Below, piece after piece: positions 9,326 to 58,635 of a DNA stretch of 64,000 nucleotides (the stretch's first letter is position 1; each line of letters opens with the position of its first letter). The DNA is taken from contig OZ024933.1 of assembly GCA_964017235.1 (NCBI GenBank), positions 90,983,432-91,047,431 of the forward strand, read 5' to 3'. Made by a program: the position numbers and the translations under genes. A model generated the notes under the pieces. That model was not told the DNA's origin. It ran no database searches and saw nothing but the letters and a program-made list of their open reading frames with translations. This stretch comes from Sabellastarte sp. h YS-2021 (lineage: Eukaryota; Annelida; Polychaeta; Sabellida; Sabellidae).

Positions 9326-9510
9326 CCCCCCTTGGCCTAGTGGGTAACACACTTGCCTTGGCACACAGAGAACCTGGGTTTAATCCCAGGTAATGGCAGA
9401 TACATAGTGGCTCGGATGACTTCTTTAAATGGCAGTCCTCTGTTATTGAATCCTGTCACGTGTGGTAGTCACATGTAAAACTCTGTCTTTCAGTTAGGGG
9501 AATGTCAATT
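9326..9510 (+). mobile_element. tRNA-derived SINE (family 2)
   Basis: The head has an A-box-like TGGCCTAGTGG and a B-box-like GGTTTAATCCC spaced as in a tRNA, followed by a body (aggtaatggcagatacatag). Relics of the same body appear at 16331-16450, and a similar head on the minus strand at 25815-25915. Confidence 0.6.
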
Positions 9511-12364: not shown

Positions 12365-13110
12365 GTCATGGTAGAAAGTCCAATCTGGTAGAATTTCAAA
12401 TTCTACCAGTAGAAAGTCCAGTTGGAGTTTCTACCAACACAAACTTGGTAGATAGTCCAACTGCTCAAAATCTGGATGAGGAGACAGTACTGCAAGCTTT
12501 ACATGCTGAGACCAACAACTGGGCAGTTGTAACAGAAAATGCTGTTGCAGAAGCATAGATCTTAATAGGTCAACTAAATGCCATGCAGAAAGTGACTGCT
12601 GTCAACATTTAATTGGCTAAAACTGTACTTCCTTTGAAAAATGGTGATGGAATATGATGCTGATTGTAAAATTCTTAAAATAGACTGAAAATTTCAGTTT
12701 CTGTCGTCTATATCAGATCTGTGTTACAGTAAAATATTTTCTTTAATATGTGCTTTTCTTCATTTGTGAAAGTTGCACCTTGTTTAGATGACAGATTTAT
12801 ATGGACAGAAGACCCACTATTTGTGATTTAGTTTCTTTCTTTCAAGGTTATATGGAGTTTCTACAAAGATTACACTCTGGTACACAGAGCAATACCTAAA
12901 TGTTTGAGATTAGAATATTAATTAGTTTATTAAATTTCGGACTCCCATCAATATCCAAATCTCCTAGATTGGACTTTCTACTGGTAGAAAATCCAATTAG
13001 ACTTTATACAAAGTTTATGGTGGCAGAAACTCCAATTGAACTTTCCACTGGTAGAAACTCCAATTGGACTCCAATTTGAAATTCTACCAGATTGGACTTT
13101 CTACCATGAC
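12365..13110. mobile_element. MITE-like DNA transposon, 746 bp
   Basis: Perfect 38-bp terminal inverted repeats at 12365-12402 and 13073-13110, starting GTCATGGTAGAAAGTCCAAT. It is flanked by AT-repeat DNA, compatible with TA target sites. Further subterminal copies of the motif (ggtagaaa..tccaat) occur at both ends in both orientations. The interior has no transposase, so it is non-autonomous. Confidence 0.8.
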
Positions 13111-13439
13111 ATATATATATATATATATTTTTTTTTGCATAGTTGCATAGTTGTATTCATACCATCTATGTCTTTTTTGTCCTTATTCAAAAATGTCTAC
13201 TTGAACATTAATTATATCTCATGATAACCTGATCATCTTTTGTCAGCCTTATATATATGCTTCTCTGAATAATGTCTCATAGTGTCATAATCATATCTCT
13301 CAAATAGTTTTTGCATCAATATTTGTGTCAAGTGTAAACACTTTCCCATAACTATGTACAATAATGTAAGATCAATCTCTTATTATACCTTGGTACATTT
13401 TGAGCAATATATATCCTTTTTGCAGATGATTCTGTGTGC
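12926..13439 (-). other. Presumed 3' untranslated region
   Basis: Sequence downstream of the stop codon. The only AATAAA-like hexamer I see on the minus strand within about 500 bases is at 12926-12931, inside the MITE at 12365-13110. If that signal is used, the transposon supplies the polyadenylation site. The UTR end is otherwise undefined. Confidence 0.3.
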
Positions 13440-13603
13440 TTAGTGATGGGGTGTAAACACGGTAGATGTTGGACCCATCTGAGTGACTGGCTGAGGGTCA
13501 ATGGTATCTGCATCTTCAGATTCATCAGGGGAGTCAGCACTCTCAGTGTCATTCTCAGGCTTGGTCTTGTTCCGTGACAGCCTTCTTTTCAGATAGTAGA
13601 TCA
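13440..13603 (-). CDS. Terminal coding exon: end of membrane helix and cytoplasmic tail
   Basis: The minus-strand acceptor ends in ccaccag at 13604-13610. The exon enters in phase 1 and completes a Val codon, then reads V-I-Y-Y-L-K-R-R-L, which finishes the transmembrane helix begun in 15358-15483 and gives a basic stop-transfer cluster. The tail is about 45 residues after the basic cluster, with an acidic middle ([10 protein letters not shown]) and ends T-P-H-H before TAA at 13440-13442. No ankyrin repeats, RAM motif or obvious C-terminal PDZ ligand are present. The longer open frame running on to 13847 is intronic read-through, because the acceptor and phase match the upstream exon exactly. 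Confidence 0.85.
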
Positions 13604-22600: not shown

Positions 22601-25600
22601 CTTCTTGTATTGTGTGATTATTGTTGCATAGGGGCCATTACTTAGGTTTCACATTACATTAGACGAGTCCATATTACCATTATTCTGGCAAGGATTTGGA
22701 TTTTCACACAGATTTTGGTCTTCACATGTGGCCCCTTTCCATCCCAGTGCACAATCGCATGAGAACACATTGACACCGTCCTCACAAGCTCCACCATTGG
22801 AACAAGGGTTGGGTGAACAGTCATCAATATTCTCACCACACGTATCGCCTGTGAAATTAAAATGCCATTTGGGAAGTAGGTTTTATTGCAGCCAAATTAC
22901 CCAAGTGATGTACTGCTTGGCACTGCATCATTGCACAAAATCACAAACTAGAAGTTAGAATATTTTTAACATTTGGTCGTAATTGGTAAATTAATGTACT
23001 TTTGCATAACAATATAAAGGAGTTGAATAAGGGCAGAAATATATTAAATATATTTGGAGATTTCTGTATGCAAACTGCACAAAGTAGGGGTGCTGATTTC
23101 AAGTAGAAATTATATTATCACCCTTAAAAACAATTAAAAAATGTTTATCAGTTTCATTTTATGTTAGCAAAAATATAATTATAACTTGTGCTTCTGTCAA
23201 TGCATATTTTGATCAATCTTAATCCACATAACTACACTTAAAGTAAGCAACAGTAAGATTTTTGTGTCCCAGTTGTGCAAAGTTACCGTGCTGAGCAGTA
23301 TTTTTTTAAAAATTTTATCAATAGTAAAGACATAGGATGGCAATGTTATCTTTTTGCCTTATCTACATAACGCACATTTAAACGCATACTTCAGACAACT
23401 TAAGCAATTATCCACCCATATTTTGAATATTAAGTAAAATAAACCCAAATTTACTTTAAAATGTACATTCATTCTATTACTGGAAATGAAGTAATTGAGT
23501 TAAACTAATCAATGAATTTTAAACAACAATTTATCAACTTATCAAGAATAATGGTACAACTGTAATCGTGTATTTTAAATACAGACAAATGTATATTTTT
23601 GGTATTGGTGACATTGTACCAGTATATCCAGGGTAACAATTGCAGGTGAAACTTCCTACACTGTTGAAACAATCACCAGATTGACAGGGATATTCAAGGC
23701 ATTCATCAATATCAGAATCACAAAGATCTCCTGCAAAAAGGTGGCACATTTCACTGAAAGATTAATTTCTATTTAATTTGCATTTGTACCTGAAAACAAT
23801 ATATCTTTCAAGTTTATTGAGGCATGTTTATTACTGGTTTATATTAATAATGTTTTAATTCCATTAAATGAAGAAAAAGTAGAAAAAATAATGTTTCATT
23901 TGTTTTGTCAAACATCAGATAGTAATTTACAATTTGAGTTTCCAGTCAATGCTAAAAGCAACAATTTTACATGTATTTCATAGTAATTTGAACAGAAAGT
24001 ACAGTCCATGAGGTAATGACAAATACTGAAAGAATTGAGAAATGTTAAGGCCACATATATGCATCATTCTTAATTGTTGGTGAAATATACATTTTACTTA
24101 TTTGTAAGAAAAGAACCAATTGTGTATTAGAAATAAAACTGGAATGATTTTACTAGGACTCTTTTAAAATAATTATTAATTTAATACTTTGATTTTCTTT
24201 AACATTTTTTTAAAAAAGTAGGTGAAGTATAATTGCACTTGCACGGTTTGTCACTGGTGCTTCAAAGTACACTCACATTACATCCACCCTTAGGACACTC
24301 CATTGGCTACCCGTTAGACAACGTATTATCTTCAAAACCCTAGTTTTGGTCTATAAGTACCTCACCACTGGCCAGCCTAAGTATTTTGCACCATATCTCC
24401 CCTTGTACAAATCTGCCGTGAATACAAGACGTTCCAATCCCAAAAATTTGTTCCTTCTGGTTCCCTCTTACTGTCCTTCCATCCATAAATCAAAGGTCCA
24501 TTTTAACAATAGTTTCTCATATGATGCCCCTAAGTTATGGAATGATCTTCCATATGATATACGCAGTGCTCCAAATCTCTCCAGTTTCAAAAGTCGACTC
24601 AAAACCTACCTATTTCAGAAATCATTCCCACCATAGCTTCTTACTACCGAACACCGGACCGCCTCCCTGGCAACGACTCGGAACATGTCTAATGTCTCAT
24701 GATTTATGCCTTACGGATTGGATGGTGTGCCTTAGAATCCGTTGATATGGAGATTAAGCACCTGGACAACTGATTGATTGATTGATTGTTGCATAATCAT
24801 TTCAGAGGCTAGAGTAGCCAGAGTCAGTCACTTGTCAAGTTATATTAACTACTACATTCAAAGTTACAGTGACTTGTCAAATAATACTGACCATTATATC
24901 CAGCATCACAGTTACACTGGAAGCTTCCAATGCTGTTGATACATGTTCCTTGTTCACAGGGACTGGACTCACATTCATCGATGTCCACATCACAAAAGTT
25001 TCCTGAAAAAGGTTACACACATAACAAGAGCCCGGGTGCCATATTCATACATTTAATCATGAATAAAGATCAACTAATGACACACAAGTCCTACATGAGA
25101 AAGAATATTGTTTTTCTATTTACAGTGACCTAATTTGAAATATACTTTAAAAGGCTTTATGTAACTGTTATTGTCCACCACTTTCCTTAAATAAGTAAGG
25201 GGTGCCAGTGAATATAAAAATATCAGGTCTTAAGTTGAGGTTTTTCTGCCACTTCTGCAAGGTTTTGAATGGAATGAAAATGAAAAATAACAGGCTTTAC
25301 TTTTATGCCTTTTATGTATTTTTGGGTCAAAAATAGTTTACTCAAAAGAGCACATTTTGAAAAGATGTTTATCACATAGATAACATATATTGCTAACAAT
25401 GTTGACTGAATAATTAATATGTTGCATAAATATAAATACATTTCTACCAAAATCTTGCCTATTTTAGTTAAATAATGGATACATGTGAATATTATATACA
25501 ATTAAAAAACAAACCATATGGAGTGGAAGTTAAATCTAAATAACAATGTAAAAGATTAATATTGCTTGTAACAGATCTCTCAGCACCATTTGTATGTACC

Positions 25601-28600
25601 TGTAAACCCAGAGTCACATGTACATACAAAGCTTCCAGGATTATTTGTACAACTTCCATACATGCATGGGTTACCTTCACATTCATCTATATCTGTATCA
25701 CACTGGTTTCCTAAAAATAAAAAGACACTCTGCAAATACTAGATCCAATTCCAAAGGTCTAAGCCCAAACTTGGGATTTTATGGTATAATTCAACTGCCA
25801 TAGTTATAGACATTAGGCAGTTCCTCAGTTTTTTCACTTGTGAGAGTCAAACCCTCCCAGAGGTGACAGCTTGTGATGAGATGCCATACTTGACCCCTAG
25901 GCCACTGAGGACCTTTGGATCCTACTACAAGGAAACAGGAGAAACTAATATTGTTATTAACAGAACACCAAGATTATTTTGAAAAAAAATTCAAATATTC
26001 TTACCTCAACTGTCACTTTAAACTGAGAATAAGATAACTATTAGTAAGAAATAGGAATATAATTTTATTCAGTTTATTTTGGCAAAACAGATTTTAAAGA
26101 TGTTTTTCCTGTCAATGTTTAGGAAAATTAAGTTGAAAAACAAAAGTTAAACCAATATTAAAATGTGAAAATGACTTAAAATGTAAAAATTACTTTATAT
26201 TTTAATAGATAATGATTCAGCTGGCATTCTGTCACCAAATCTTTAAATCTTGTCAAGTTTGTTTCATAACTTACATATTCTACAGAAACAATCACCACAC
26301 AGCTTACAGCAATCTAAACTAGGCATCAGTGATCAAAATTATTAAAGGGTACACATATATGTTTATCAACTTTTGGTAAAATTTTAAGGCATATACTAAG
26401 TAACCAAATCCAAGCAATAGCATTAAACTAAGGGGTCAGATAACTACATGTGTTCACATTTTTGAATCACCCTTTCAGCATATTTTTGGAAAACAACTGA
26501 TAGAATTTGTGGGTAACTAACCTGTGTACCCAGGTTCACATGTGCATACAAAGCTTCCAGGATTATTTGTACAATTTCCATATATACATGGGTCACCCTC
26601 ACATTCATCTACGTCTGTCTCACACAGGTTTCCTAACATGAAAACACATACTGTAAATATTTGATCCTACTACAATGAACATGAATCTTATTGATATTAA
26701 TACAACTTAAGATCACTCTGGATGAAAACAAATTGCAAAAGTTTATTGTTTTATTTCAAGTATTAATACAAGGAAAAGAGTAGATAAGTTTTAAACAACA
26801 AAACTTACAACTTTTTAAAAGTATTATTGTTTGGTAGAACGGATTATTTTAAATATGCTATTGTATTATTATTATTTAGAGGGGGGCCATGGTGGCAGAG
26901 TGGTAACACTCGTGCCTCCCACCTCTGAGGCCGGGTTTCGATTCCCGGTACAGCCTCAGGTAGGAATGCTGATAGTTGCTTACTGTTAGTCGGTAGTTTA
27001 CAGTACAGAACCCTAACAGGCTGTATGTACTGGTTTCCTCTGCTTTTCCAACTACCCGTCGTGATATGACCTGTACAGTGTTGAAAAGGGCATAAAATCC
27101 CAAATAAGTAAAATAAATAAATATTATTATTTAGACAAGCTTATTCAAAAAATGCTTTGCAAGTGATACAGCCAGGATCATGTGTGGGTTACTAACCTGT
27201 ATACCCAGGGACACATGTACAATCAAAGCTTCCAGGATTATTTGTACAATTTCCAAATATGCAAGGAACATCCACACATTCATCTATATCCACTTCACAA
27301 AGGGATCCTAGAAATGAAAACATATCCTGTCTCTGTAATAGTATTAACTAGAAAAATTTAAATTTTATCAACCTCAAGTGTCACTGCACACAGGAGCTAT
27401 TACTATCAAATAGTCAGTTAGTGTATTAACACAGTTTCTTTTGGGAACATGGATTTGAAGTGTTACTCCTATAATGTTTACAAAATTTCTATTGGAAAAC
27501 CAAATATTTTCCCAATAATTAAAGTGGATATAATGAATGAATTTTACTTTGAATTATGACAAAAATGGCGAAAGTGAATTTTGGTCACCAAATTCACAAT
27601 TTTGTTAGTTGCCATCAATATCTTATGGATGTTGTTTACAATTTATCAAAAAGCAACACATTATTTCTTCAAAAACTTGCATATTACACAAAAATCAGTC
27701 ATGACACAGCTTATAATCACAAAAATAATGTATCCACATTCCAAAGCATTTAAGGGCAGACTTACATATTTACTTATTGTTTGGAAAAATTTAAGGCATT
27801 TTCAAAGTTACCAACATAAGTAAGAATATTTATATAAATACCACAAAATAAGGGTCATATTACTTTATATGTTTATATTTTCGAATCACCATTTCAGCAT
27901 ATTTTTGGATAACAACTGATAGAATTTGTGGGTAACTAACCTGTGTACCCAGGTTCACATGTGCATACGAAGCTTCCAGGATTATTTGTACAATTTCCAT
28001 ATATACATGGGTCACCCTCACATTCATCTACGTCTGTCTCACACAGGTTTCCTAACATGAAAACACATACTGTAAATATCTGATGCTACTACAATGAACA
28101 TGAATCTTATTGATATTAATACAACTTAAGATCACTCTGGATGAAAACAAATTGCAAAAGTTTATTGTTTTGTTTCAAGTATTATTACAAAGAAAAGAGT
28201 AGATAAGTTTTAAACAACAAAACTTACAACATTTTAAAATTATTATTGTTTGGCAGAACGGATTTTTTTAAATATGCTATTGTATCATTATTATTTATAG
28301 GTGGGCCATGGTGGCAGAGTGGTAACACTCGTGCCTCCCACCTCTGAGGCCAGGTAGGAAAGCTGATAGTTGCTTACTGTTGGTCGGTAGTTTACAGTAC
28401 AGAACCCTAAGAGACTCTATGTACTGGTTTCCTTTGCTTTTCCAACTACCCGTCGTGATATGACCTGTACAGTGTTGAAAAGGGCGTAAAATCCCAAATA
28501 AATAAAACAAATATATATTATTATTTAGACAAGCTTATTCGTAAAATGCTTTGCAAGTGATACAGCCAGGAGCATTTGTGGGTTACTAACCTGTATACCC

Positions 28601-40600: not shown

Positions 40601-43600
40601 AAAAATTTAAGGCATTTTCAAAGTTACCAACATAAGTAAGAACATTAATATAAATACCAGAAAACAAGGGTCATATTACTATATGTGTTCCTATTTTTGA
40701 ATCACCATTTCAGGATATTTTTAAAAAAAAACTGATAGAATTTGTGGGTAACTAACCTGTGTACCCAGGTTTACATGTGCATACAAAGCTTCCAGGATTA
40801 TTTGTACAATTTCCATATATACATGGGTCACCCTCACATTCATCTACGTCTGTCTCACACAGGTTTCCTAACATGAAAACACATACTGTAAATATTTGAT
40901 CCTACTACAATGAACATGAATCTTATTGATATTAATATGGGGCCACGGTGGCAGAGTGGTAACACTCTCGCCTCCCACCTCTGAGGCCGGGGTTCGATCC
41001 CCGTGAAGGCCTTATGTGGGAAAGCTGGTAGTTGCTTGCCGTTGGTCGGCAGTTTACAGTACAGAACCCTAGCGAACTCTATGTACTGGTTTCCTCTGCC
41101 CTTCCAACTACCCATCGTGATATGACCTGTACAGTGTTGAAAGCGACGTAAAACCCCAAATAAATAAATATTGATATTAATACAACTTAAGATCATTCTG
41201 AGTGAAAACAAATTGCAAAAGTTTATTGTTTTATTTCAAGTGTTATTACAAAGAAAAGACTAGATAAGATTTAAACAACAACACTTACAACTTTTTAAAA
41301 GTATTATGGTTTGGCAGAACAGATTACTTTAAATATGCTATTGTATTATTATTTAGACAAGCTTATTTGAAAAATGCTTTGCAAGTGATACAGTCAGGAT
41401 CATTTGTGGGTTACTAACCTGTATACCCAGGGACACATGTACAATCAAAGCTTCCAGGATTATTTGTACAATTTCCATACATGCAAGGAACATCCACACA
41501 TTCATCTATATCCACTTCACAAAGGGATCCTAGAAATGAAAACATATCCTGTCTCTGTAATGGTATTAACTCAAAAAATTTACAGTTTATCAACCTCAAG
41601 TGTCACTGCACACTGGAGCTATTACTATCAAATGGTCAATTAGTGTATTTACACAGTTTCTTTTGGGAACATGGATTCTAAGGGTTACTCCTATAATCTT
41701 TGCAAAATTTCTATTGGAAAACCAAATATTTTCCCAATAATTAAAGTGGAAAAATAAATGAATTTTGCATTAAATTATTTTAAAACATGGTGAAAGTGAA
41801 TTTTGGTCAACAAATTCACAATTTTATTAGTTGTCATCAATATCTTATGGGTGTTGTTTATAATCTATCAAAAAGCAACAGATTATTCCTTCAGAAAATT
41901 GCATATTACACAAAAATCAGTCATGACACAGCTTATTATCACAAAAATAATGTATCAACATTCCAAAGCAGTTAAGGTCAGACTTACATATTTACTTATT
42001 GCTTGGAAAAATTTAAGGCATTTTCAAAGTTACCAATATAAGTAAGAAAATTAATATAAATACCAAAAAATTAGGGTCAAATTACTACATGTGTTCACAT
42101 TTTTGAATCACCATTTCAGGATATTTTAAAAAAAACAACTGACAGAATTTGTGGGTAACTAACCTGTGTACCCAGGTTCACATGTGCATACAAAGCTTCC
42201 AGGATTATTTGTACAATTTCCATATATACATGGGTCACCCTCACATTCATCTACGTCTGTCTCACACAGGTTTCCTAACATGAAAACACATACTGTAAAT
42301 ATCTGATCCTACTACAATGAACATGAATCTTATTGATATTAATACAACATAAGATCACTCTGGATGAAAACAAATTGCAAAAGTTTATTGTTTTATTTCA
42401 AGTATTATTACAAAGAAAAGAGTAGATAAGATTTAAACAACAACACTTACAAATTTTTAAAAGTATTATTGTTTGGCAGAACAGATACTTTAAATATGCT
42501 ATTGTATTATTATTTAGACAAGCTTATTTGAAAAATGCTTTGCAAGTGATACAGTCAGGATCATTTGTGGGTTACTAACCTGTATACCCAGGGACACATG
42601 TACAATCAAAGCTTCCAGGATTATTTGTACAATTTCCATACATGCAAGGAACATCCACACATTCATCTATATCCACTTCACAAAGGGATCCTAGAAATGA
42701 AAACATATCCTGTCTCTGTAATGGTATTAACTAGAAAAAAATTAAAGTTTATCAACCTCAAGTGTCACTGCACACTGGAGCTATTACTGTCAATTTTCTT
42801 AGATGCCATCCATATCTTATGGATGTTGTTTACAATTTATCAAAAGCAACAGATTATTCCTTCAAAAAATTGCATATTACACAAAAATCAGTCATGACAC
42901 AACTTATCATGACAAAAATAATGTATCTACATTCCAAAGCAGCTAAGGGCAGACTTACATATTTACTTATTGCTTGGAAAAATTTAAGGCATTTTCAAAG
43001 TTACCAATATAAGTAAGAACATTAAAATAAATACCAAAAAATAAGGGTCATATCACTACATGTGTTCACATTTTTGAATCACCATTTCAGGATATTTTTA
43101 AAAAACAACTGATAGAATTTGTGGATAACTAACCTGTGTACCCAGGTTCACATGTGCATACAAAGCTTCCAGGATTATTTGTACAATTTCCATATATACA
43201 TGGGTCACCCTCACATTCATCTACGTCTGTCTCACACAGGTTTCCTAAAATGAAAACACATACTGTAAATATTTGATCCTACTACAATGAACATGAATCT
43301 TATTGATATTAATACAACATAAGATCACTCTGGATGAAAACAAATTGCAAAAGTTTATTGTTTTATTTCAAGTATTATTACAAAGAAAAGAGTAGATAAG
43401 ATTTAAACAACAACACTTACAAATTTTTAAAAGTATTATTGTTTGGCAGAACAGATTACTTTAAATATGCTATTGTATTATTATTTAGACAAGCTTATTT
43501 GAAAAATGCTTTGCAAGTGATACAGTCAGGATCATTTGTGGGTTACTAACCTGTATACCCAGGGACACATGTACAATCAAAGCTTCCAGGATTATTTGTA

Positions 43601-49600: not shown

Positions 49601-52600
49601 TAGATAAGATTTAAACAACAAAACTTACAACTTTTTAAACATATTATTGTTTGGCCGAATGGATTACCTTAAATATGCTATTGTATTATTATTATTTAGA
49701 CAAGCTTATTCGAAAAATGCTTTGCAAGTGATACAGTCAGGATCATTTGTGGGTTACTAACCTATATACCCAGGGACACATGTACAATCAAAGCTTCCAG
49801 GATTATTTGTACAATTTCCATACATGCAAGGAACATCCACACATTCATCTATATCCACTTCACAAAGGGGTCCTAGAAATGAAAACATATCCTGTCTCTG
49901 TAATGGTATTAACTAGCAAAATTTAAATTTTATCAACCTCAAGTGTAACTGCACACTGGAGCTATTACTATCAAATAGTCAGTTTATTTGCACAGTTTCT
50001 TTTGGGAACATGGATTTTTAAAAGTGTTACTCCTATAATGTTTACAAAACTTCTATTGGAAAACAAATATTTTCCCAATAATTAAAGTGGATATAATGAA
50101 CGAATTTTACTTTAAATTATGATAAAAATGGTGAAAGTGAATTTTGGTCACCAAATTCACAATTTTGTTAGTTGCTATAAATATCTTATGGATGTTGTTT
50201 ATAATTTATCAAAAAGCAACAGATTATTCCTTCAAAATATTGCTTATTACACAAAAATCAGTCATGACAGAGGTTATAAGCACAAAAATAATGTATCAAC
50301 ATTCCAAAGCAGTTAAGGTCAGACTTACATATTTACTTATTGCTTGGAAAAATTTAAGGCATTTTCAAAGTTACCAATATAAGTAAGAAAATTAATATAA
50401 ATACCAAAAAATTAGGGTCAAATTACTACATGTGTTCACATTTTTGAATCACCATTTCAGGATATTTTTAAAAAACAACTGATAGAATTTGTGGATAACT
50501 AACCTGTGTACCCAGGGTCACATGTGCATACAAAGCTTCCAGGATTATTTGCACAATTTCCATATATACATGGGTCACCCTCACATTCATCTACGTCTGT
50601 CTCACACAGGTTTCCTAAAATGAAAACACATACTGTAAATATTTGATCCTACTACAATGAACATGAAACTTATTGATATTAATACAACTTAAGATCATTC
50701 TGAGTGAGAACAAATTGCAAAATTTTATTGTTTTATTTCAAGTGTTATTACAAAGAAAATAGTAGATAAGTTTTAAACAACAAAACTTACAACTTTTTAA
50801 AAGTATTATTGTTTGGCAGAACGGATTATTTTAAATATGCTATTGTATTATTATTATTTAGAGGAGGGCTATGGTGGCAGAGTGGTAACACTCGCGCCTC
50901 CCACCTCTGAGGCCGGGTTTCGATTCCCGGCACGGCCTCAAGTGGGAAAGCTGGTAGTTGCTTACTGTTGGTCAGCAGTTTACAGTACAGAACCCTAAGA
51001 AACTCTATGTACTGGTTTCCTCTGCTTTTCCAACTACCCGTTGTGATATGACCTGCACAGTGTTGAAAAGAGCGTAAAACCCCAAATAAAAAAATAAAAC
51101 AAATATTATTATTTAGACAAGCTTATTCGAAAAATGCTTTTCAAGTGATACAGTCAGGATCATTTGTGGATTACTAACCTGTATACCCAGGGACACATGT
51201 ACAATCAAAGCTTCCAGGATTATTTGTACAATTTCCATATATACATGGGTCACCCTCACATTCATCTACATCTGTCTCACACAGGTTTCCTAAAATGAAA
51301 ACACATACTGTAAATATTTGATCCTACTACAATGAACATGAATCTTAATGATATTAATACAACTTAAGATCATTCTGAATAAAAGCAAATTGCAAAAGTT
51401 TATTGTTTTATTTCAAGTGTTATTACAAAGAAAAGAGTAGATAAGATTTAAACAACAAAACTTACAACTTTTTAAAAGTATTATTGTTTGGCAGAACGGA
51501 TTACTTTAAATATGTTATTGTATTATTATTATTTAGACAAGCTTATTCGAAAAATGCTTTGCAAGTGATACAGTCAGGATCATTTGTGGGTTACTAACCT
51601 GTATACCCAGGGACACATGTACAATCAAAGCTTCCAGGATTATTTGTACAATTTCCATACATGCAAGGAACATCCACACATTCATCTATATCCACTTCAC
51701 AAAGGGATCCTAGAAATGAAAACATATCCTGTCTCTGTAATGGTATTAACTCGAAAAATTTACAGTTTATCAACCTCAAGTGTCACTGCACACTGGAGCT
51801 ATTACTATCAAATGGTCAATTAGTGTATTTACACAGTTTCTTTTGGGAACATGGATTATAAGGGTTACTCCTATAATCTTTGCAAAATTGCTATTGGAAA
51901 ACCAAATATTTTCCCAATAATTAATGTGGAAAAATAAATGAATTTTGCATTAAATTATTTTAAAACATGGTGAAAGTGAATTTTGGTCAACAAATTCACA
52001 ATTTTATTAGTTGTCATCAATATCTTATGGGTGTTGTTTATAATCTATCAAAAAGCAACAGATTATTCCTTCAAAAAATTGCATATTACACAAAAATCAG
52101 TCATGACACAGCTTATAATCACAAAAATAATGTATCAACATTCCAAAGCAGTTAAGGTCAGACTTACATATTTACTTATTGCTTGGAAAAATTTAAGGCA
52201 TTTTCAAAGTTACCAATATAAGTAAGAACATTAATATAAATACCAAAAAATTAGGGTCAAATTACTACATGTGTTCACATTTTTGAATCACCATTTCAGG
52301 ATATTTAAAAAAAAACAACTGACAGAATTTGTGGGTAACTAACCTGTGTACCCAGGTGCACATGTGCATACAAAGCTTCCAGGATTATTTGTACAATTTC
52401 CATATATACATGGGTCACCCTCACATTCATCTACGTCTGTCTCACACAGGTTTCCTAACATGAAAACACATACTGTAAATATCTGATCCTACTACAATGA
52501 ACATGAATCTTATTGATATTAATACAACATAAGATCACTCTGGATGAAAACAAATTGCAAAAGTTTATTGTTTTATTTCAAGTATTATTACAAAGAAAAG

Positions 52601-55600
52601 AGTAGATAAGATTTAAACAACAACACTTACAAATATTTAAAAGTATTATTGTTTGGCAGAACAGATTACTTTAAATATGCTATTGTATTATTATTTAGAC
52701 AAGCTTATTTGCAAAATGCTTTGCAAGTGATACAGTCAGGATCATTTGTGGGTTACTAACCTGTATACCCAGGGACACATGTACAATCAAAGCTTCCAGG
52801 ATTATTTGTACAATTTCCATACATGCAAGGAACATCCACACATTCATCTATATCCACTTCACAAAGGGATCCTAGAAATGAAAACATATCCTGTCTCTGT
52901 AATGGTATTAACTAGAAAAAAATTAAAGTTTATCAACCTCAAGTGTCACTGCACACTGGAGCTATTACTGTCAATTTTCTTAGATGCCATCCATATCTTA
53001 TGGATGTTGTTTACAATTTATCAAAAGCAACAGATTATTCCTTCAAAAAATTGCCTATTACACAAAAATCAGTCATGACACAACTTATCATGACAAAAAT
53101 AATGTATCTACATTCCAAAGCAGCTAAGGGCAGACTTACATATTTACTTATTGCTTGGAAAAATTTAAGGCATTTTCAAAGTTACCAATATAAGTAAGAA
53201 CATTAAAATAAATACCAAAAAATAAGGGTCATATCACTACATGTGTTCACATTTTTGAATCACCATTTCAGGATATTTTTAAAAAACAACTGATAGAATT
53301 TGTGGATAACTAACCTGTGTACCCAGGTTCACATGTGCATACAAAGCTTCCAGGATTATTTGTACAATTTCCATATATACATGGGTCACCCTCACATTCA
53401 TCTACGTCTGTCTCACACAGGTTTCCTAAAATGAAAACACATACTGTAAATATTTGATCCTACTACAATGAACATGAATCTTATTGATATTAATAAAAGT
53501 TAAGATCATTCTGAATGAAAACAAATTGCAAAAGTTTATTGTTTTATTTCAAGTGTTATTACAAAGAAAAGAGTAGATAAGTTTTAAACAACAAAACTTA
53601 CAACTTTTTAAAAGTACTATTGTTTGGCAGAACAGATCATTTTAAATATGCTATTGTATTTTTTTTATTTAGAGGGGGGCTACAGTTGCAGAGTGGTAAC
53701 ACTCGCGCCTCCCACCTCTGAGGTCAGGTTTCGATTCCCGACACGGCCTCAAGTGGGAAAGCTGGTAGTTGCTTACTGTTGGTTGGCAGTTTACAGTACA
53801 GAACCCTAACAAACTGTATGTACTGGTTTCCTCTGCTTTTCCAACTACCCGTCGTGATATGACCTGCACAGTGTTGAAAAGGGCCTAAAACCCCAAATAA
53901 ATAAATAAAACAAATATTTTTATTTAGACAAGCTTATTTGAAAAATGCTTTGCAAGTGATACAGTCAGGATCATTTGTGGGTTACTAACCTGTATACCCA
54001 GGGACACATGTACAATCAAAGCTTCCAGGATTATTTGTACAATTTCCATACATGCAAGGAACATACACACATTCATCTATATCCACTTCACAAAGGGATC
54101 CTAGAAATGAAAACATATCCTGTCTCTGTAATGGTATTAACTCGAAAAATTTAAATTTTATCTACCTCAAGTGTCACTGCACACTGTAGCTATTACTATC
54201 AAATATTCAGTTAGTTTATTTACACAGTTTCTTTTGGGAACATGGATTATAAGTGTTACTCCTATAATGTTTACAAAATTTCTATTGGAAAACAAAATAT
54301 TTTCCCAATAATTAAAGTGGATATAATGAATGAATTTTGCATTAAATTATTTAAAAAAATGGTGAAAGTGAATTTTGGTCACCAAATTCACAATTTTGTT
54401 AGTTGTCATCAATATCATATGGATGTTGTTTATAATTTATCAAAAAGCAACATATTATTCCTTCAAAAAATTGCATATTACACAAAAATCAGTCATGTCA
54501 CAGCTTATAATCACAAAAATAATGTATCAACATTCCAAAGCAGTTAAGGGCAGACTTACATATTTACTTATTGCTTGGAAAAATTTAAGGCATTTTCAAA
54601 GTTACCAATATAAGTAAGAACATTAATATAAATACCAAAAAATAAGGGTCATATCACTACATGTGTTCACATTTTTGAATCACCATTTCAGGATATTTTT
54701 AAAAAACAACTGATAGAATTTGTGGATAACTAACCTGTGTACCCAGGTTCACATGTGCATACAAAGCTTCCAGGATTATTTGTACAATTTCCATATATAC
54801 ATGGGTCACCCTCACATTCATCTACGTCTGTCTCACACAGGTTTCCTAAAATGAAAACACATACTGTAAATATTTGATCCTACTACAATGAACATGAATC
54901 TTAATGATATTAATACAACTTAAGATCATTCTGAATAAAAGCAAATTGGAAAATTTAATTGTTTTATTTCAAGTGTTATTACAAAGAAAAGAGTAGATAA
55001 GATTTAAACAACAAAACTTACAACTTTTTAAACATATTATTGTTTGGCAGAATGGATTACCTTAAATATGCTATTGTATTATTATTATTTAGACAAGCTT
55101 ATTCGAAAAATGCTTTGCAAGTGATACAGTCAGGATCATTTGTGGGTTACTAACCTATATACCCAGGGACACATGTACAATCAAAGCTTCCAGGATTATT
55201 TGTACAATTTCCATACATGCAAGGAACATCCACACATTCATCTATATCCACTTCACAAAGGGGTCCTAGAAATGAAAACATATCCTGTCTCTGTAATGGT
55301 ATTAACTAGCAAAATTTAAATTTTATCAACCTCAAGTGTAACTGCACACTGGAGCTATTACTATCAAATAGTCAGTTTATTTGCACAGTTTCTTTTGGGA
55401 ACATGGATTTTTAAAAGTGTTACTCCTATAATGTTTACAAAACTTCTATTGGAAAACAAATATTTTCCCAATAATTAAAGTGGATATAATGAACGAATTT
55501 TACTTTAAATTATGATAAAAATGGTGAAAGTGAATTTTGGTCACCAAATTCACAATTTTGTTAGTTGCTATAAATATCTTATGGATGTTGTTTATAATTT

Positions 55601-58600
55601 ATCAAAAAGCAACAGATTATTCCTTCAAAATATTGCATATTACACAAAAATCAGTCATGACAGAGGTTATAAGCACAAAAATAATGTATCAACATTCCAA
55701 AGCAGTTAAGGTCAGACTTACATATTTACTTATTGCTTGGAAAAATTTAAGGCATTTTCAAAGTTACCAATATAAGTAAGAACATTAATATAAATACCAG
55801 AAAATAAGGGTCATATCACTACATGTGTTCACATTTTTGAATCACCATTTCAGGATATTTTTAAAAAACAACTGATAGAATTTGTGGATAACTAACCTGT
55901 GTACCCAGGGTCACATGTGCATACAAAGCTTCCAGGATTATTTGCACAATTTCCATATATACATGGGTCACCCTCACATTCATCTACGTCTGTCTCACAC
56001 AGGTTTCCTAAAATGAAAACACATACTGTAAATATTTGATCCTACTACAATGAACATGAAACTTATTGATATTAATACAACTTAAGATCATTCTGAGTGA
56101 AAACAAATTGCAAAATTTTATTGTTTTATTTCAAGTGTTATTACAAAGAAAATAGTAGATAAGTTTTAAACAACAAAACTTACAACTTTTTAAAAGTATT
56201 ATTGTTTGGCAGAACGGATTATTTTAAATATGCTATTGTATTATTATTATTTAGAGGAGGGCTACGGTGGCAGAGTGGTAACACTCGCGCCTCCCACCTC
56301 TGAGGCCGGGTTTCGATTCCCGGCACGGCCTCAAGTGGGAAAGCTGGTAGTTGCTTACTGTTGGTCAGCAGTTTACAGTACAGAACCCTAAGAAACTCTA
56401 TGTACTGGTTTCCTCTGCTTTTCCAACTACCCGTTGTGATATGACCTGCACAGTGTTGAAAAGAGCGTAAAACAACAAATAAAAAAATAAAACAAATATT
56501 ATTATTTAGACAAGCTTATTCGAAAAATGCTTTGCAAGTGATACAGTCAGGATCATTTGTGGATTACTAACCTGTATACCCAGGGACACATGTACAATCA
56601 AAGCTTCCAGGATTATTTGTACAATTTCCATATATACATGGGTCACCCTCACATTCATCTACATCTGTCTCACACAGGTTTCCTAAAATGAAAACACATA
56701 CTGTAAATATTTGATCCTACTACAATGAACATGAATCTTAATGATATTAATACAACTTAAGATCATTCTGAATAAAAGCAAATTGCAAAAGTTTATTGTT
56801 TTATTTCAAGTGTTATTACAAAGAAAAGAGTAGATAAGATTTAAACAACAAAACTTACAACTTTTTAAAAGTATTATTGTTTGGCAGAACGGATTACTTT
56901 AAATATGCTATTGTATTATTATTATTTAGACAAGCTTATTCGAAAAATGCTTTGCAAGTGATACAGTCAGGATCATTTGTGGGTTACTAACCTATATACC
57001 CAGGGACACATGTACAATCAAAGCTTCCAGGATTATTTGTACAATTTCCATACATGCAAGGAACATCCACACATTCATCTATATCCACTTCACAAAGGGG
57101 TCCTAGAAATGAAAACATATCCTGTCTCTGTAATGGTATTAACTAGCAAAATTTAAATTTTATCAACCTCAAGTGTAACTGCACACTGGAGCTATTACTA
57201 TCAAATAGTCAGTTTATTTGCACAGTTTCTTTTGGGAACATGGATCTTTAAAAGTGTTACTCCTATAATGTTTACAAAATTTCTATTGGAAAACAAATAT
57301 TTTCCCAATAATTAAAGTGAATATAATGAATGAATTTTACTTTAAATTATGATAAAAATGGCGAAAGTGAATTTTGGTCACCAAATTCACAATTTTGTTA
57401 GTTGCTATAAATATCTTATGGATGTTGTTTATAATTTATCAAAAGCAACAGATTATTCCTTCAAAAAATTGCATATTACATAAAAATCAGTCATGACACA
57501 GCTTATAATCACAAAAATAATGTATCAACATTCCAAAGCAGTTAAGGTCAGACTTACATATTTACTTATTGCTTGGAAAAATTTAAGGCATTTTCAAAGT
57601 TACCAATATAAGTAAGAACATTAATATAAATACCAAAAAATAAGGGTCATATTACTACATGTGTTCACATTTTTGAATCGCCATTTCAGGATATTTTTAA
57701 AAAACAACTGACAGAATTTGTGGGCAACTAACCTGTGTACCCAGGTTCACATGTGCATACAAAGCTTCCAGGATTATTTGTACAATTTCCATATATACAT
57801 GGGTCACCCTCACATTCATCTACGTCTGTCTCACACAGGTTTCCTAAAATGAAAACACATACTGTAATTATTTGATCCTACTACAATGAACATGAATCGT
57901 ATTGATATTAGAGAAACTTAAGATCATTTTGAATAAAAACAAATTGCAAAACTTTATTATTTTATTTCAAGTGTTATTATAAAGAAAAGAGTAGATAAGT
58001 TCTAAACAACAAAACTTACAACTTTTTAAAAGTATTATTGTTTGGCAGAATGGATTACTTTAAATGTGGTTTTGTATTATTATTATTATTCAGACAAGCT
58101 TATTCAAAAAATGCTTTGCAAGTGATATAGTCAGGATCATTTGTGGGTTACTAACCTGTATACCCAGGGACACATGTACAATCAAAACTTCCAGGATTAT
58201 TTGTACAATTGCCATTCATGCAAGGAGCATACATACATTCATCTATATCCACTTCACACAGGTTTCCTAGAAATTAAAGCAAAAGTGTAAATGTCTTCCA
58301 AGGAGAGGATTTGTAAACATTGAAATTAATGGAACCCAATATCATTACAAGTGAAAAGAAAATTCAAATATTCTTAAGATCGAAAATCATTGCAAAGAGA
58401 TGAGTAGATAAATAAACAGCAAAAGAAAAACTTGTTAAAATGTGTTATTTCATTAGGTTCAGAAGGTTATGTTTCAGAAATGCTTGACAGGTGATAGAAT
58501 CACGATAATTTGATGGTTACTAACCTGTATACCCAGGGTCACATGTGCATAAAAAGCTTCCAGGAGTATATGTACAATTTCCATGCAAGCAAGGATCATT

Positions 58601-58635
58601 GTGACATTCATTTATATCCTCATCACAGTCATATC
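13440..58635 (-). CDS. Giant multi-cbEGF type I transmembrane protein (3' part of gene)
   Basis: Spliced minus-strand gene with 62 exons joined here by splice sites (minus-strand gt/ag) and matching phases. In 5'-to-3' order: 54 array exons of 111 bp from 58525-58635 down to 26522-26632, then 25600-25710, 24892-25002, 23620-23730, 22678-22848, 21282-21462, 17949-18109, 15358-15483 and 13440-13603. Together they give about 2,375 codons with no frame break. The product is a rod-like chain of about 60 EGF domains, mostly calcium-binding (D-x-D-E-C before Cys1 and C-x-N-x4-F-x-C-x-C), then one membrane helix and a short acidic tail. No signal peptide is in the window, so the N terminus lies to the right. 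LNR, RAM, ankyrin and laminin-G regions are absent from this part, which argues against Notch and Crumbs; a fibropellin-like or orphan EGF adhesion or receptor protein fits better. The ligand and role cannot be read from sequence. Confidence 0.9.
14660..14910 (+). mobile_element. Diverged SINE in the last intron
   Basis: Resembles the SINE at 15616 in its 3' body (ctggtttcctctgcccttaa and a later ttgtgatgacc) and ends in an A-rich tail. The head is degraded (ggtcatgagtttgaatcaaa at the B box). Old copy. Confidence 0.5.
15358..15483 (-). CDS. Juxtamembrane and transmembrane-start exon
   Basis: A 126-bp exon between a minus-strand acceptor (attttag|CAC) and donor (GCAG|gtatgt), phase 1 in and phase 1 out. 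It encodes a basic stretch (R-Q-R-T-R), a polar linker (D-Q-N-Q-D-G-S-G-N) and then the start of a hydrophobic small-residue helix, [15 protein letters not shown], continued as V-I-Y-Y-L in the next exon. The closely spaced glycines could favour helix packing or dimerisation (inference). The basic cluster just outside the membrane might be a cleavage site, but no canonical furin motif is present. Confidence 0.85.
15616..15846 (+). mobile_element. tRNA-derived SINE (family 1)
   Basis: Starts GGGGCCACGGTGGCAGAGGG, with an A box (TGGCAGAGGGG) and B box (GGTTCAGTTCTT, degraded), then the family body with cagtttacagtacagaaccc and a tail ccccaaacaaataaa. It lies in the intron between 15483 and 17949. 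Confidence 0.8.
16331..16450 (+). mobile_element. Relic of SINE family 2
   Basis: The stretch beginning aggtatgggcagatacacaa is similar to aggtaatggcagatacatag in the SINE at 9326, through to tgttcc/cagtcc. The tRNA head is gone. Low certainty. Confidence 0.35.
17949..18109 (-). CDS. Membrane-proximal EGF-like exon (161 bp)
   Basis: Acceptor tattttcag|GGG and donor GATA|gtgagt; phase 2 in, phase 1 out, matching both neighbours. It encodes a cysteine-rich module starting [11 protein letters not shown] and ending [13 protein letters not shown], a typical C-terminal EGF signature. The middle has two additional cysteines and a long Ser/Gly insert, so the domain is divergent and larger than a standard EGF. 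It is the last extracellular domain before the linker and membrane helix. Confidence 0.85.
18834..19270. repeat. GGTCA-rich diverged repeat
   Basis: Two to three loosely repeated stretches with aagtatcaa, then tctgagatatag and aaggtcaaggtc motifs, with a period of roughly 140-180 bases. Unknown family, in the intron between 18109 and 21282. Confidence 0.35.
19700..20760 (-). pseudogene. Degenerate coding-like remnant, unrecognised
   Basis: On the minus strand several short frames read like protein (an 80-codon frame at 19716-19958, glutamine-rich stretches near 20200-20300 and a further open piece at about 20640-20760) but are broken by frameshifts and stops. The composition suggests a gag-like or other retroelement ORF. 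I cannot name a family. It sits in an intron of the EGF gene on the same strand. Confidence 0.3.
21282..21462 (-). CDS. EGF exon (181 bp), phase 1 in, phase 2 out
   Basis: Acceptor attcacag|GG and donor TTTTGG|gtgagt. It completes the EGF begun in the preceding exon ([20 protein letters not shown]) and starts another ([12 protein letters not shown]...T-C-S-C). The stretch C-Q-N-D-G-T-C fits the O-fucose consensus C2-x4-[S/T]-C3; no array exon does. This is the only switch to phase 2 in the gene and is taken up by the next exon. Confidence 0.88.
22678..22848 (-). CDS. EGF exon (171 bp), one full cbEGF and the start of another
   Basis: Acceptor tttcacag|GCG and donor AATAATG|gtaata, phase 1-1. 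It supplies Cys6 of the previous EGF (D-T-C), a complete cbEGF beginning [10 protein letters not shown] and ending L-G-W-K-G-A-T-C, and the first half of the next ([11 protein letters not shown]), which continues in 21282-21462. The calcium and hydroxylation signature C-x-D-x4-F-x-C-x-C is present. A stop codon follows shortly in the read-through frame, supporting the donor choice. Confidence 0.88.
23620..23730 (-). CDS. Single-copy cbEGF exon (111 bp)
   Basis: Phase 1-1 exon with donor TACTG|gtacaa and acceptor tgcag|GAG. It reads [10 protein letters not shown], then [20 protein letters not shown] and Y-P-G-Y-T-G. It has the same length and permuted boundaries as the array exons, but its sequence is diverged and it has one copy only. 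It is therefore an older relative outside the homogenising array. Confidence 0.9.
24247..24788 (+). mobile_element. 5'-truncated non-LTR retrotransposon (LINE) tail
   Basis: Codes the C-terminal end of a reverse-transcriptase [16 protein letters not shown] followed later by [11 protein letters not shown] and [11 protein letters not shown], stop TAG at 24634-24636. These are hallmarks of the ORF2 end of CR1/L2/Jockey-like elements. It ends in a (TGAT)n-like run, tgattgattgattgattg, at about 24772-24788. It is inserted in the intron between 23730 and 24892, antisense to the host gene. Confidence 0.8.
24892..25002 (-). CDS. Single-copy cbEGF exon (111 bp)
   Basis: Phase 1-1 exon with donor ATAATG|gtcagt and acceptor ttcag|GAA. 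It reads [20 protein letters not shown], then [17 protein letters not shown]. The calcium-binding and Asn-hydroxylation signatures are intact. The position before the final Gly is Asn rather than Thr, so the O-GlcNAc consensus seen in array exons is missing here. Confidence 0.9.
25600..25710 (-). CDS. B-like cbEGF exon at the C-terminal edge of the array
   Basis: Phase 1-1, 111 bp, donor TTTACAG|gtacat. It is clearly related to the B exons ([21 protein letters not shown]) but carries private changes: N-Q-C-D-T-D-I at the start, G-S-C instead of G-N-C (so no N-C-T sequon), and D-S-G-F-T at the end. Its downstream intron is not of the array classes. It looks like the transition between the old single-copy EGF exons and the expanded array. 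Confidence 0.9.
25815..25915 (-). mobile_element. SINE head relic
   Basis: On the minus strand, agtggcctaggggtcaag followed by gggtttgactctcac resembles a tRNA A box and B box, as in the SINE at 9326. Only the head is left. Confidence 0.4.
26522..32507 (-). CDS. Array block 1: nine 111-bp cbEGF exons
   Basis: B exons: 26522-26632, 27941-28051, 29587-29697, 30751-30861, 32397-32507. A exons: 27197-27307, 28591-28701, 30007-30117, 31401-31511. The A exons at 27197 and 30007 carry C-I-F-G-N-C in place of C-M-Y-G-N-C. The part from 27191 to about 30066 recurs at 30001 to about 32876, offset 2810 bp, with no difference seen by eye. It contains one plus-oriented SINE (class 1 intron) and one minus-oriented SINE (class 2 intron). 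Confidence 0.9.
26881..27122 (+). mobile_element. Family 1 SINE in a class 1 array intron
   Basis: Head with TGGCAGAGTGG and GGTTTCGATTCCC-like boxes, body cagtttacagtacagaaccc-like, A/T-rich tail. It is inserted at tattattatttaga, the same site as the copies at 28301, 31111, 50865, 53673 and 56255, so it descends from one insertion copied with the array. Confidence 0.85.
28301..28510 (+). mobile_element. Family 1 SINE, class 1 intron, B box deleted
   Basis: Same insertion site as 26881, but about 25 bases covering the B box are missing (ctctgaggccaggtaggaaa). The identical deletion occurs at 31111, which marks the 2810-bp duplication. Confidence 0.85.
29301..29541 (-). mobile_element. Family 1 SINE in a class 2 array intron
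   Basis: Inverted relative to the class 1 copies: head at the high-coordinate end (ccaccgtggcccccc), tail a T-rich run near 29301. Flanked by caggatatcttta on both sides (target site duplication). Identical site to 32111, 33527, 34941, 36356 and 37776. Confidence 0.85.
31111..31320 (+). mobile_element. Family 1 SINE, class 1 intron, duplicate of 28301
   Basis: Offset exactly 2810 bp from 28301-28510 with the same B-box deletion. No difference seen by eye. Confidence 0.85.
32111..32351 (-). mobile_element. Family 1 SINE, class 2 intron, duplicate of 29301
   Basis: Offset 2810 bp from 29301-29541; same target duplication caggatatcttta. Confidence 0.85.
32817..38596 (-). CDS. Array block 2: nine cbEGF exons on a 1.41-1.42-kb period
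   Basis: A exons: 32817-32927, 34231-34341, 35646-35756, 37066-37176, 38486-38596. B exons: 33811-33921, 35226-35336, 36646-36756, 38066-38176. The period is 1414 to 1420 bp because each class 2 intron from 32928 to 38065 carries the same minus-oriented SINE. The A exon at 38486 has E-C-M-D-I-P-C instead of E-C-V-D-V-P-C, a variant shared with 40203. Class 1 introns are all 309 bp. Confidence 0.9.
33527..33765 (-). mobile_element. Family 1 SINE, class 2 intron
   Basis: Same insertion site as 29301; carries private changes such as tcatgacggg and cactgtggcc, so it has diverged from the other copies. Confidence 0.85.
34941..35180 (-). mobile_element. Family 1 SINE, class 2 intron
   Basis: Same site; head ccaccgtggccccccc at 35166-35180. 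Private changes include gggatggaacc at the B box. Confidence 0.85.
36356..36600 (-). mobile_element. Family 1 SINE, class 2 intron
   Basis: Same site; tail lengthened (tttattattatttttttt), a feature shared with 37776. The two are therefore sister copies. Confidence 0.85.
37776..38020 (-). mobile_element. Family 1 SINE, class 2 intron
   Basis: Same site and same longer tail as 36356, with a ctgttcagg change in the body. The next class 2 intron (38597-39229) lacks the SINE, so this is the edge of the SINE-bearing sub-array. Confidence 0.85.
39230..39340 (-). CDS. Chimeric A/B cbEGF exon
   Basis: The 5' (high-coordinate) half is type A ([15 protein letters not shown]) and the 3' half is type B ([10 protein letters not shown]). 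The switch falls within the stretch of about 32 bp that A and B share (about 39257-39289). Both flanking introns are class 2 (38597-39229 and 39341-39782), so one class 1 intron is missing. This is the structure left by unequal crossing-over between an A and a B exon. Confidence 0.9.
39783..46765 (-). CDS. Array block 3: fourteen cbEGF exons
   Basis: B exons: 39783-39893, 40757-40867, 42164-42274, 43134-43244, 44105-44215, 45267-45377, 46238-46348. A exons: 40203-40313, 41419-41529, 42580-42690, 43551-43661, 44525-44635, 45684-45794, 46655-46765. Short 971-bp units (deleted class 2 introns) mix with 1.16-kb units. B at 40757 has K-P-G-Y-T instead of E-P-G-Y-T. A at 44525 has P-L-C in place of S-L-C but keeps the Thr. 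A young SINE sits in the intron after 40867. Confidence 0.9.
40939..41168 (+). mobile_element. Family 1 SINE, independent insertion with clean target duplication
   Basis: Flanked by perfect 14-bp copies of TATTGATATTAATA (40924-40937 and 41169-41182). A box TGGCAGAGTGG and B box GGTTCGATCCC match the consensus. The site differs from the other class 1 copies and no other repeat unit shares it, so it inserted after this unit was made. Confidence 0.9.
47209..50614 (-). CDS. Array block 4: seven cbEGF exons
   Basis: B exons: 47209-47319, 48371-48481, 49342-49452, 50504-50614. A exons: 47629-47739, 48788-48898, 49762-49872. The A exons at 47629 and 49762 are a sub-variant with P-L-C at the start and G-Y-I-G at the exon junction, so the usual Thr is lost. 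B at 50504 has C-A-N-N (no N-glycan sequon) and D-P-G-Y-T. Offsets of 3104 and 2133 bp link these exons to their counterparts in block 3. Confidence 0.9.
50865..51100 (+). mobile_element. Family 1 SINE, class 1 intron
   Basis: Same site as 26881 (tattattatttaga on both sides). B box GGTTTCGATTCCC-like, intact. Paired with 56255 at an offset of about 5393 bp. Confidence 0.85.
51179..51289 (-). CDS. Chimeric B/A cbEGF exon (copy 1)
   Basis: The 5' half is type B ([20 protein letters not shown]) and the 3' half is type A ([10 protein letters not shown]). It is flanked on both sides by class 1 introns (50615-51178 with a SINE, and 51290-51598), so a class 2 intron is missing. It is the mirror image of the chimera at 39230-39340. 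The same structure recurs 5393 bp to the right at 56572-56682. Confidence 0.9.
51599..56007 (-). CDS. Array block 5: eight cbEGF exons
   Basis: A exons: 51599-51709, 52761-52871, 53990-54100, 55155-55265. B exons: 52344-52454, 53315-53425, 54735-54845, 55897-56007. Private changes: B at 52344 has A-P-G-Y-T; A at 53990 has E-C-V-Y-V-P-C; A at 55155 is the P/I sub-variant; B at 55897 has C-A-N-N and D-P-G, as at 50504. The block from about 49.7 to 51.5 kb is repeated at about 55.1 to 56.9 kb (offset 5393 bp), SINE included. Confidence 0.9.
53673..53912 (+). mobile_element. Family 1 SINE, class 1 intron
   Basis: Same site as 26881 with private changes (ctacagttgcag in the head, aggtcaggtttcg near the B box). 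An older, separately evolving copy. Confidence 0.85.
56255..56493 (+). mobile_element. Family 1 SINE, class 1 intron, duplicate of 50865
   Basis: Offset about 5393 bp from 50865; nearly identical (ctacggtgg for ctatggtgg; aaaacaacaaat for aaaaccccaaat). It travels with the B/A chimeric exon at 56572. Confidence 0.85.
56572..56682 (-). CDS. Chimeric B/A cbEGF exon (copy 2)
   Basis: Same B-then-A chimera as 51179-51289, with class 1 introns on both sides (56008-56571 with a SINE, 56683-56991). It is the duplicated product of a single crossover event, copied with its neighbours at an offset of 5393 bp. The reading frame is intact. Confidence 0.9.
56992..58266 (-). CDS. N-terminal edge of the array: three cbEGF exons
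   Basis: 56992-57102 is the A sub-variant with P-L-C and G-Y-I-G. 57733-57843 is a standard B exon. 58156-58266 is A-like but diverged: it starts [10 protein letters not shown] like a mix of B and A, then [10 protein letters not shown], and ends as A. Introns 57103-57732 (630 bp) and 57844-58155 (312 bp) still belong to classes 2 and 1, so this is the last fully recognisable unit on this side. Confidence 0.9.
58525..58635 (-). CDS. Diverged cbEGF exon upstream of the array
   Basis: 111 bp, phase 1-1, with acceptor cttag|GAT and donor ATACAG|gttagt. It reads [27 protein letters not shown]. The residue two after Cys3 is Tyr instead of Asn, so the hydroxylation signature is lost, while the N-C-T sequon remains. 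The intron to 58266 is only 258 bp and fits neither class. It is the first exon seen in the window on the N-terminal side, apart from the tentative one at 63939. Confidence 0.88.

Follow-up and report, generated by a model that had tools for sequence, protein, structure and literature searches.

Results

A homogenised cbEGF exon array in gene W

The window analysed here is the whole 64,000-nt stretch C7:90983432-91047431 of the Sabellastarte sp. genome (1.786 Gb in 647 contigs). Its minus strand carries a gene, hereafter gene W, in which 57 consecutive cbEGF exons run from position 58635 down to 23620, the array having been rebuilt by splicing. Each of the 57 exons is 111 bp long, of phase 1-1 and flanked by an AG acceptor and a GT donor, with the donor reading GTTAGT in 54 of them. 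One divergent exon is followed by 53 exons of two types, A (27) and B (26), and then by three divergent exons, in exact agreement with the first-pass annotation, which had reported 57 consecutive 111-bp phase 1-1 cbEGF exons, 53 of them of the A/B kind. The exons of gene W placed in the window are as follows.

58525 to 58635, minus strand: first cbEGF exon, divergent, 111 bp, phase 1-1 (splice model)
26522 to 58266, minus strand: 53 cbEGF exons of 111 bp and phase 1-1 in higher-order repeats, 27 of type A and 26 of type B (splice model and self-alignment)
25600 to 25710, minus strand: cbEGF exon 55, divergent (splice model)
24892 to 25002, minus strand: cbEGF exon 56, divergent (splice model)
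23620 to 23730, minus strand: cbEGF exon 57, divergent (splice model)
22678 to 22848, minus strand: EGF exon after the array, 171 bp (splice model)
21282 to 21462, minus strand: EGF exon, 181 bp (splice model)
17949 to 18109, minus strand: EGF exon, 161 bp (splice model)
15358 to 15483, minus strand: exon holding most of the presumed transmembrane helix (helix judged by eye)
13440 to 13603, minus strand: last exon, with the helix end, a KRR stop-transfer, an acidic tail ending in STVFTPHH and the stop codon TAA (splice model)

By pattern, all 57 domains contain cysteines C1 to C6 and the calcium box [DN]x[DN][EQ]C, and were assigned to EGF_CA (PF07645) on these grounds; Pfam, applied to 11000-25999, recovered EGF_CA in three stretches, while the A/B exons were typed by pattern. 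A strict cbEGF motif matched the window 55 times on the minus strand and not once on the plus strand. The domains reduce to 18 distinct peptides, one of which accounts for 20 copies and another for 14; this uniformity weighs against sequence diversity being what the array is for. Their mean pairwise identity is 83.1%, compared with 41-42% by the same measure in two fish Notch1 proteins, and of 178 fetched proteins, the 120 that had at least 20 EGFs by our own pattern reached a mean of no more than 66.9%. The earlier claim of more than 50 near-identical domains, more uniform than those of Notch, thus holds against these two Notch1 proteins, fibrillin being outside the comparison. The introns, which had been described as satellite-like, repeat together with the exons, in self-alignments of at least 97% identity at shifts of, for example, 972, 1417, 2132, 2810 and 3103 bp.

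Asx-hydroxylation motifs are present in 56 of the 57 domains, and 52 match C..G.[TS]G..C, a motif-level resemblance to the EOGT O-GlcNAc consensus C5XXG(Y/F)(T/S)GXXC6 (PMC5388531). That source reports the consensus for 15 repeats of Drosophila Notch, of which five are major sites, and names Dumpy in this connection as an O-GlcNAc-modified protein (PMC5388531). Only two O-fucose-like sites and one O-glucose-like site were found in the cbEGF run. Of the solved sequences, 15 matched the A/B repeat with an E value of 1e-10 or lower, and all of these were Notch or Delta-like 1.

A dispersed element of ~230 bp, SINE-like by eye and without an Rfam match at the gathering score, occurs in array introns and flanks (15600-15850, 26847-27140, 40855-41235, 50826-51122 and 56219-56515), and some of its copies were apparently amplified together with the array. 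The window also holds a 304-residue ORF on the minus strand at 3049-3960, probably a retroelement remnant, which matched Retrotrans_gag below the Pfam cutoff (E 6e-4, 20.4 versus 24.1 bits), two copies of a 285-bp unit at 9509-10080 (99% matches), and an 87-bp tandem repeat of 4.9 copies at 2026-2452 (88% matches).

Gene W continues into a putative membrane anchor and Cys-rich modules

The presumed helix encoded after the array is made up of small and hydrophobic residues and is followed by a tail of ~50 residues (49 counted from KRR on). With one hydrophobic helix, a basic stop-transfer, a short tail and a stop codon, all judged by eye, the product reads as a type I membrane protein.

Outside the window, gene W has five Cys-rich modules on the same strand, each encoded by two exons (203-206 and 163-169 bp). 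Short exons that encode Thr-rich linkers (51-54 bp) join the modules; phase 1-1 is maintained by every module together with its linker, and a GC donor is used at two of the five module b exons. The core of the gene comprises 76 exons (14 for modules and linkers, 57 for the cbEGF run and five for the C-terminus). They join into one open frame of 3,058 residues that has its only stop at the end and begins with a split codon completed with a filler base. Between modules 1 and 2, a 2.8-kb tandem repeat (continued coordinates 103.5-126.2 kb) carries eight candidate acidic exons of 99 bp, all open, AG/GT-flanked and of phase 1-1, which lie outside the 3,058-residue count. A first scan for a signal peptide gave no candidates, and a relaxed scan gave one signal-like start beyond the window, at 149368, a weak candidate.

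When two Cys-rich module sequences were compared with Pfam, one had no match and the other matched only Cas_NE0113 below cutoff (E 0.03, 14.6 versus 23 bits); a profile search of PDB returned only Plexin-C1 at E 0.32, nothing credible, and the protein search returned no matches. Going by these family, protein and structure-sequence searches, the module may be a new domain.

As a protein query, the C-terminus of gene W alone gave 58 matches among 331 candidates. With a shortened query of 1,615 residues, residues 1-700 matched none of 7,986 scored candidates of about 888-2826 residues, a range that excludes longer relatives, and residues 1300-1615 matched 1,548 of 2,948 candidates in the same range, of which the best 120 were considered. 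None of the 178 listed proteins matched the transmembrane and tail query at E 1, and among these proteins the module exons were touched solely by local matches of weak score (E 0.025 at best). No orthologue of gene W was found in these protein searches.

A neighbouring paralogue carries a second kind of coding array

A paralogue, gene U, lies on the same strand ~180 kb upstream, a distance taken between the first cbEGF exons of the two genes. When their final 14 kb are aligned, W and U are 98-99% identical in three longer inner blocks of 8.1, 2.1 and 0.5 kb and 91 and 95% identical in the outermost pair, and the tail peptides are identical across 58 aligned residues (query 59). The 5′ flanks of the arrays are 76-87% identical across most aligned stretches. 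Gene U encodes 57 cbEGF domains, of which 55 were recognised by motif in 111-bp exons; the other two are encoded by a 108-bp first exon that keeps the calcium box DRNEC and by one B copy in which Cys4 is replaced by Ser. The retention of all six cysteines that had been proposed for the array is therefore complete in gene W (57 of 57) and fails in one of the 57 copies of gene U. Thirty gene U exons belong to a U-only type, 'b', and stand consecutively without A exons between them, and the 3′ part of the array is A/B as in gene W. A blast search of 314 kb with 17 exon queries at E 1e-3 found no further exon copies, decayed ones included, in either of these chromosome-7 arrays. Both genes have exactly 57 cbEGF domains despite their different array make-up, an equality that may be a coincidence.

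A 136-residue open frame on the plus strand within a gene W intron (24226-24633) resembles a LINE reverse-transcriptase tail by eye and has no Pfam match; since it falls within ~550 bp that the gene U copy lacks, it looks like an insertion in gene W or a loss from gene U.

Upstream of its cbEGF run, gene U contains at least 33 copies of a ~1,871-bp unit (1.87 kb), each with one Cys-rich module. The 32 complete units differ by 1.1% on average, 31 of them are distinct, and adjacent units are 0.0-1.8% apart except for the outermost pair (3.2%). Variable columns are rarer in exons than in introns (19 of 423 versus 121 of 1448; Fisher p=0.006; the exon intervals were located in a single unit by string search, and the units are not independent), and gap columns number 0 in exons versus 248 in introns. 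Farther along, sample C7:91310000 contains the unit at 95.6% identity and C7:91325000 contains a module exon resembling those of gene W, and neither the unit nor a W-like module exon was found in samples C7:91345000 and 91370000. If continuous, the array would comprise ~40 units or more.

A third paralogue holds a different EGF exon in the array slot

Searching the genome with the tail revealed a third copy, gene T, on C5 at 48% identity. Within 10 kb (L038), its C-terminal order is that of gene W, with three EGF exons at 53-60% identity, a transmembrane exon at 34% (a weak match) and the tail at 47%. Its array slot contains 11 EGF exons of 114 bp with a different sequence, of two alternating types and mostly with an 887-bp period, and one further EGF copy appears to lack its first half. 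The array persists in samples 94098000 (99% identical to L038) and 94108000 (80%), and no EGF match was found in samples 94123000 and 94143000; from the spacing, we estimate ~48 EGFs or more. Related C-termini are thus joined to EGF arrays of differing make-up in three genes, and the different exon in gene T indicates that the same gene position has apparently been filled by different founder exons.

Exon constraint and array turnover

In all six gene W intron classes with at least two members, divergence is lower among the exons (0-2.0%) than among the introns next to them on the downstream side (0.9-7.1%), two single-member classes being left out; one class stands at 1.55% without a misplaced intron of another kind and at 10.7% with it. 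Together with the 76-exon open frame, this bears out the earlier view of a single gene with a long in-frame cbEGF rod under constraint. Within types, dN/dS was 0.29 for the A and 0.90 for the B exons of gene W, the latter resting on few changes, and 0.15 for the A and 0.40 for the b exons of gene U, with the gene U B type undefined for want of synonymous changes (Nei-Gojobori, pooled pairs that are not independent). Between types, the values were 0.20-0.26 for A versus B or b and 0.50-0.55 for B versus b, and the B exons of W versus those of U gave 1.6 on a synonymous distance of 0.012, with very few changes. Constraint is therefore clear between A and B, and weak or untestable within B; exons of one type in the same array are too much alike for a strong dN/dS test.

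Intron copies of W and U differ by 4.6% and 6.0%, scarcely more than copies within one gene (3.2-5.2%), and the closest intron pairs are 0.0% apart within one gene versus 1.9-3.0% between the two. These distances fit exchange or conversion between W and U in the A/B part, combined with what would be recent turnover inside each gene.

Discussion

A putative surface rod lengthened by exon copying

The exon anatomy, the open frame, the paralogues and the lower divergence of exons than of introns are direct observations, and the reading that we consider probable is that gene W encodes a giant type I EGF-rod tether, a stiff surface rod whose array is re-amplified under domain-level selection. In such a protein, N-terminal Cys-rich modules, linked by Thr-rich and possibly acidic stretches, would precede the 57 cbEGF domains, and the C-terminal side would consist of the products of three EGF exons, a single membrane-spanning helix and a short acidic tail. 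A cbEGF domain spans 2.7-3 nm, on which basis the run would form a stiff, calcium-dependent rod of roughly 150-170 nm that could serve as a tether or an arm for adhesion, holding the N-terminal modules off the cell. A stiff cell-surface tether is the simplest reading given the membrane-like helix and given that no Notch, ZP or laminin-G domain was found in the scanned parts. The array would be continually re-amplified and homogenised, with selection keeping every domain foldable, and this turnover may proceed by unequal exchange or conversion; because all array exons are symmetrical (phase 1-1), unequal exchange could add or remove units and leave the frame intact. Surface rod length hence seems to be built through exon copying. 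The first-pass annotation had proposed that the array functions as a long rod and would probably make a length-variable adhesion or recognition molecule; its observation of the array is confirmed and its interpretation is partly supported. It named no membrane anchor, and the Cys-rich modules and both paralogues are located beyond the stretch it covered.

We think it unlikely that the product is instead a length-variable recognition molecule for gametes, self versus non-self or pathogens, in which a partner would read array length or the mix of A, B and b domains as these vary from one individual to the next. The chromosome-7 paralogues do differ in array make-up, the 30 'b' exons occurring in gene U only; nine of 37 residues vary across the 26 B copies of gene W, five of these in the C1-C2 and C2-C3 loops, and HrVC70, a polymorphic 12-EGF sperm receptor of the egg coat, offers a precedent (PMC9265791). 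However, the copies are near-identical, with dN/dS of 0.15-0.40 for the A and b types, both chromosome-7 arrays have 57 domains, and the ZP domain of HrVC120/70 has no counterpart in the scanned parts of gene W.

It is likewise doubtful that the arrays are a mostly neutral, satellite-like expansion in a functional membrane gene, made harmless by the symmetry of the exons. Such an origin would suit the joint amplification of intron and exon in higher-order repeats, the closeness of adjacent Cys-rich units outside the outermost pair, the loss of Cys4 in one gene U copy and the gene T copy that apparently lacks its first half, but it sits poorly with chromosome-7 arrays in which no extra decayed copies were found, with 57 of 57 intact domains in gene W, and with exons that are less diverged than introns in six of six classes, although the gap is small in some (2.0 versus 4.4%; 0.7 versus 2.1%).

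An assembly origin, whether inflation of a truly short array or misplaced haplotypes that make W and U two alleles, is very unlikely in our judgement. Repeats are 97-99% identical over kilobases and the W and U 3′ ends are 98-99% identical in long blocks, which counts in favour of such an error; yet the 314 kb contain no N, 31 of 32 Cys-rich units are distinct, and the longest exact repeats are 2.9-3.5 kb. In gene W the longest is 2,883 bp, which argues against inflation without excluding it. The two-allele version is rejected on the 5′ divergence (76-87% identity over most stretches) and on the placement of W and U on one contig.

A signalling receptor of the Notch or Crumbs family whose EGF region has expanded is scarcely credible: the EGF spacing is Notch-like and Notch, Delta and Crumbs proteins were among the matches, but no LNR, ankyrin or laminin-G was found in the scanned parts, the tail has only ~50 residues, and O-fucose and O-glucose sites are almost lacking. 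Notch has LNR and ankyrin parts, neither of which Pfam detected in two frames of 11000-26000, in the third frame of 12001-25998 or in the joined C-terminus, and we reject this identity. Crumbs, which has laminin-G domains among its EGFs and an ERLI-type tail end, is rejected on the absence of laminin-G in the scanned parts and on a tail that ends in TPHH. Fibrillin and LTBP, secreted proteins with TB/8-Cys domains, do not fit 57 in-frame EGF exons, with no other exon placed between them in the splice model, and a membrane-like helix, and a ZP egg-coat or Dumpy-type protein does not fit the Pfam result of EGF-type domains alone between the array and the stop.

Beyond the tether reading of gene W itself, we tentatively raise the possibility that coding arrays are a standing device of this gene family. 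A rod of about fifty EGF domains would have been rebuilt repeatedly in the same slot of the paralogues, each time with other founder exons, and an array of a new Cys-rich domain would have been amplified in one paralogue. The resulting surface molecules, differing in length and valency between paralogues and probably between individuals, would be selected for length and not for sequence. The W/U pair holds two classes of coding array and a third candidate (cbEGF, Cys-rich unit and acidic linker). A third gene has another EGF exon in the array slot. The family offers a natural test of how satellite-like turnover and protein constraint go together, and also of whether rod length is under selection (57 and 57, with different make-up) and surface proteins in this animal are length-polymorphic.

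Comparison with known systems

Dumpy, a giant Drosophila EGF protein, is a membrane-anchored apical tether with a very long EGF run, DPY modules and a ZP domain. Gene W resembles it in the length of the EGF run and in its EOGT-type sites, and differs in that no ZP domain was found after the array. VERL of the abalone egg envelope is an egg-coat protein with tandem ZP-type repeats under concerted evolution; it shares with gene W the concerted evolution of tandem repeats in a surface protein, although the VERL repeats are of ZP type. The EGF rods of Notch and Delta (PDB 5uk5, 4xbm, 2vj3) have the domain spacing and calcium boxes of gene W, but the repeats are 41-42% alike in the two fish Notch1 proteins versus 83% in gene W.

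We know of no homogenised exon array in MUA-3 or MUP-4 of C. elegans. These are described as large transmembrane, matrilin-like proteins (VWA plus EGF) with a proposed role in linking cuticle and plasma membrane (PMC11304992), and, unlike them, gene W has no VWA match in its scanned parts. Tandem EGFs are common to gene W and the ascidian egg-coat proteins HrVC70 and HrVC120, which have 12-13 repeats and a C-terminal ZP domain, the relative HaVC80 having 13 repeats with two 8th EGF domains (PMC9265791). A structural literature search found no paper and, judged by titles and abstracts, no description of homogenised EGF exon arrays was found among the papers listed; one of these, on flatworm adhesive systems, might bear on large EGF adhesives.

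The repeat structure is close in kind to coding VNTRs such as LPA KIV-2, described as units of ~5.6 kb with two short exons, present in up to 40 repeats and forming up to 70% of the coding sequence (PMC11201333). Like KIV-2 as described there, the arrays consist of tandem multi-kb units, each with short exons for disulfide domains, that make up much of the coding sequence, and they are coding VNTRs in this sense. KIV-2 is by that account a single array of kringles in a secreted plasma protein, unlike the present family, which combines EGF domains and a domain with no credible Pfam match with a membrane anchor, in several arrays and three paralogues. Neither long EGF proteins nor coding VNTRs are new in themselves; as far as our searches went, what is new is that neighbouring paralogues carry homogenised coding arrays of two kinds of domain and that a third paralogue has what appears to be a re-founded EGF array.
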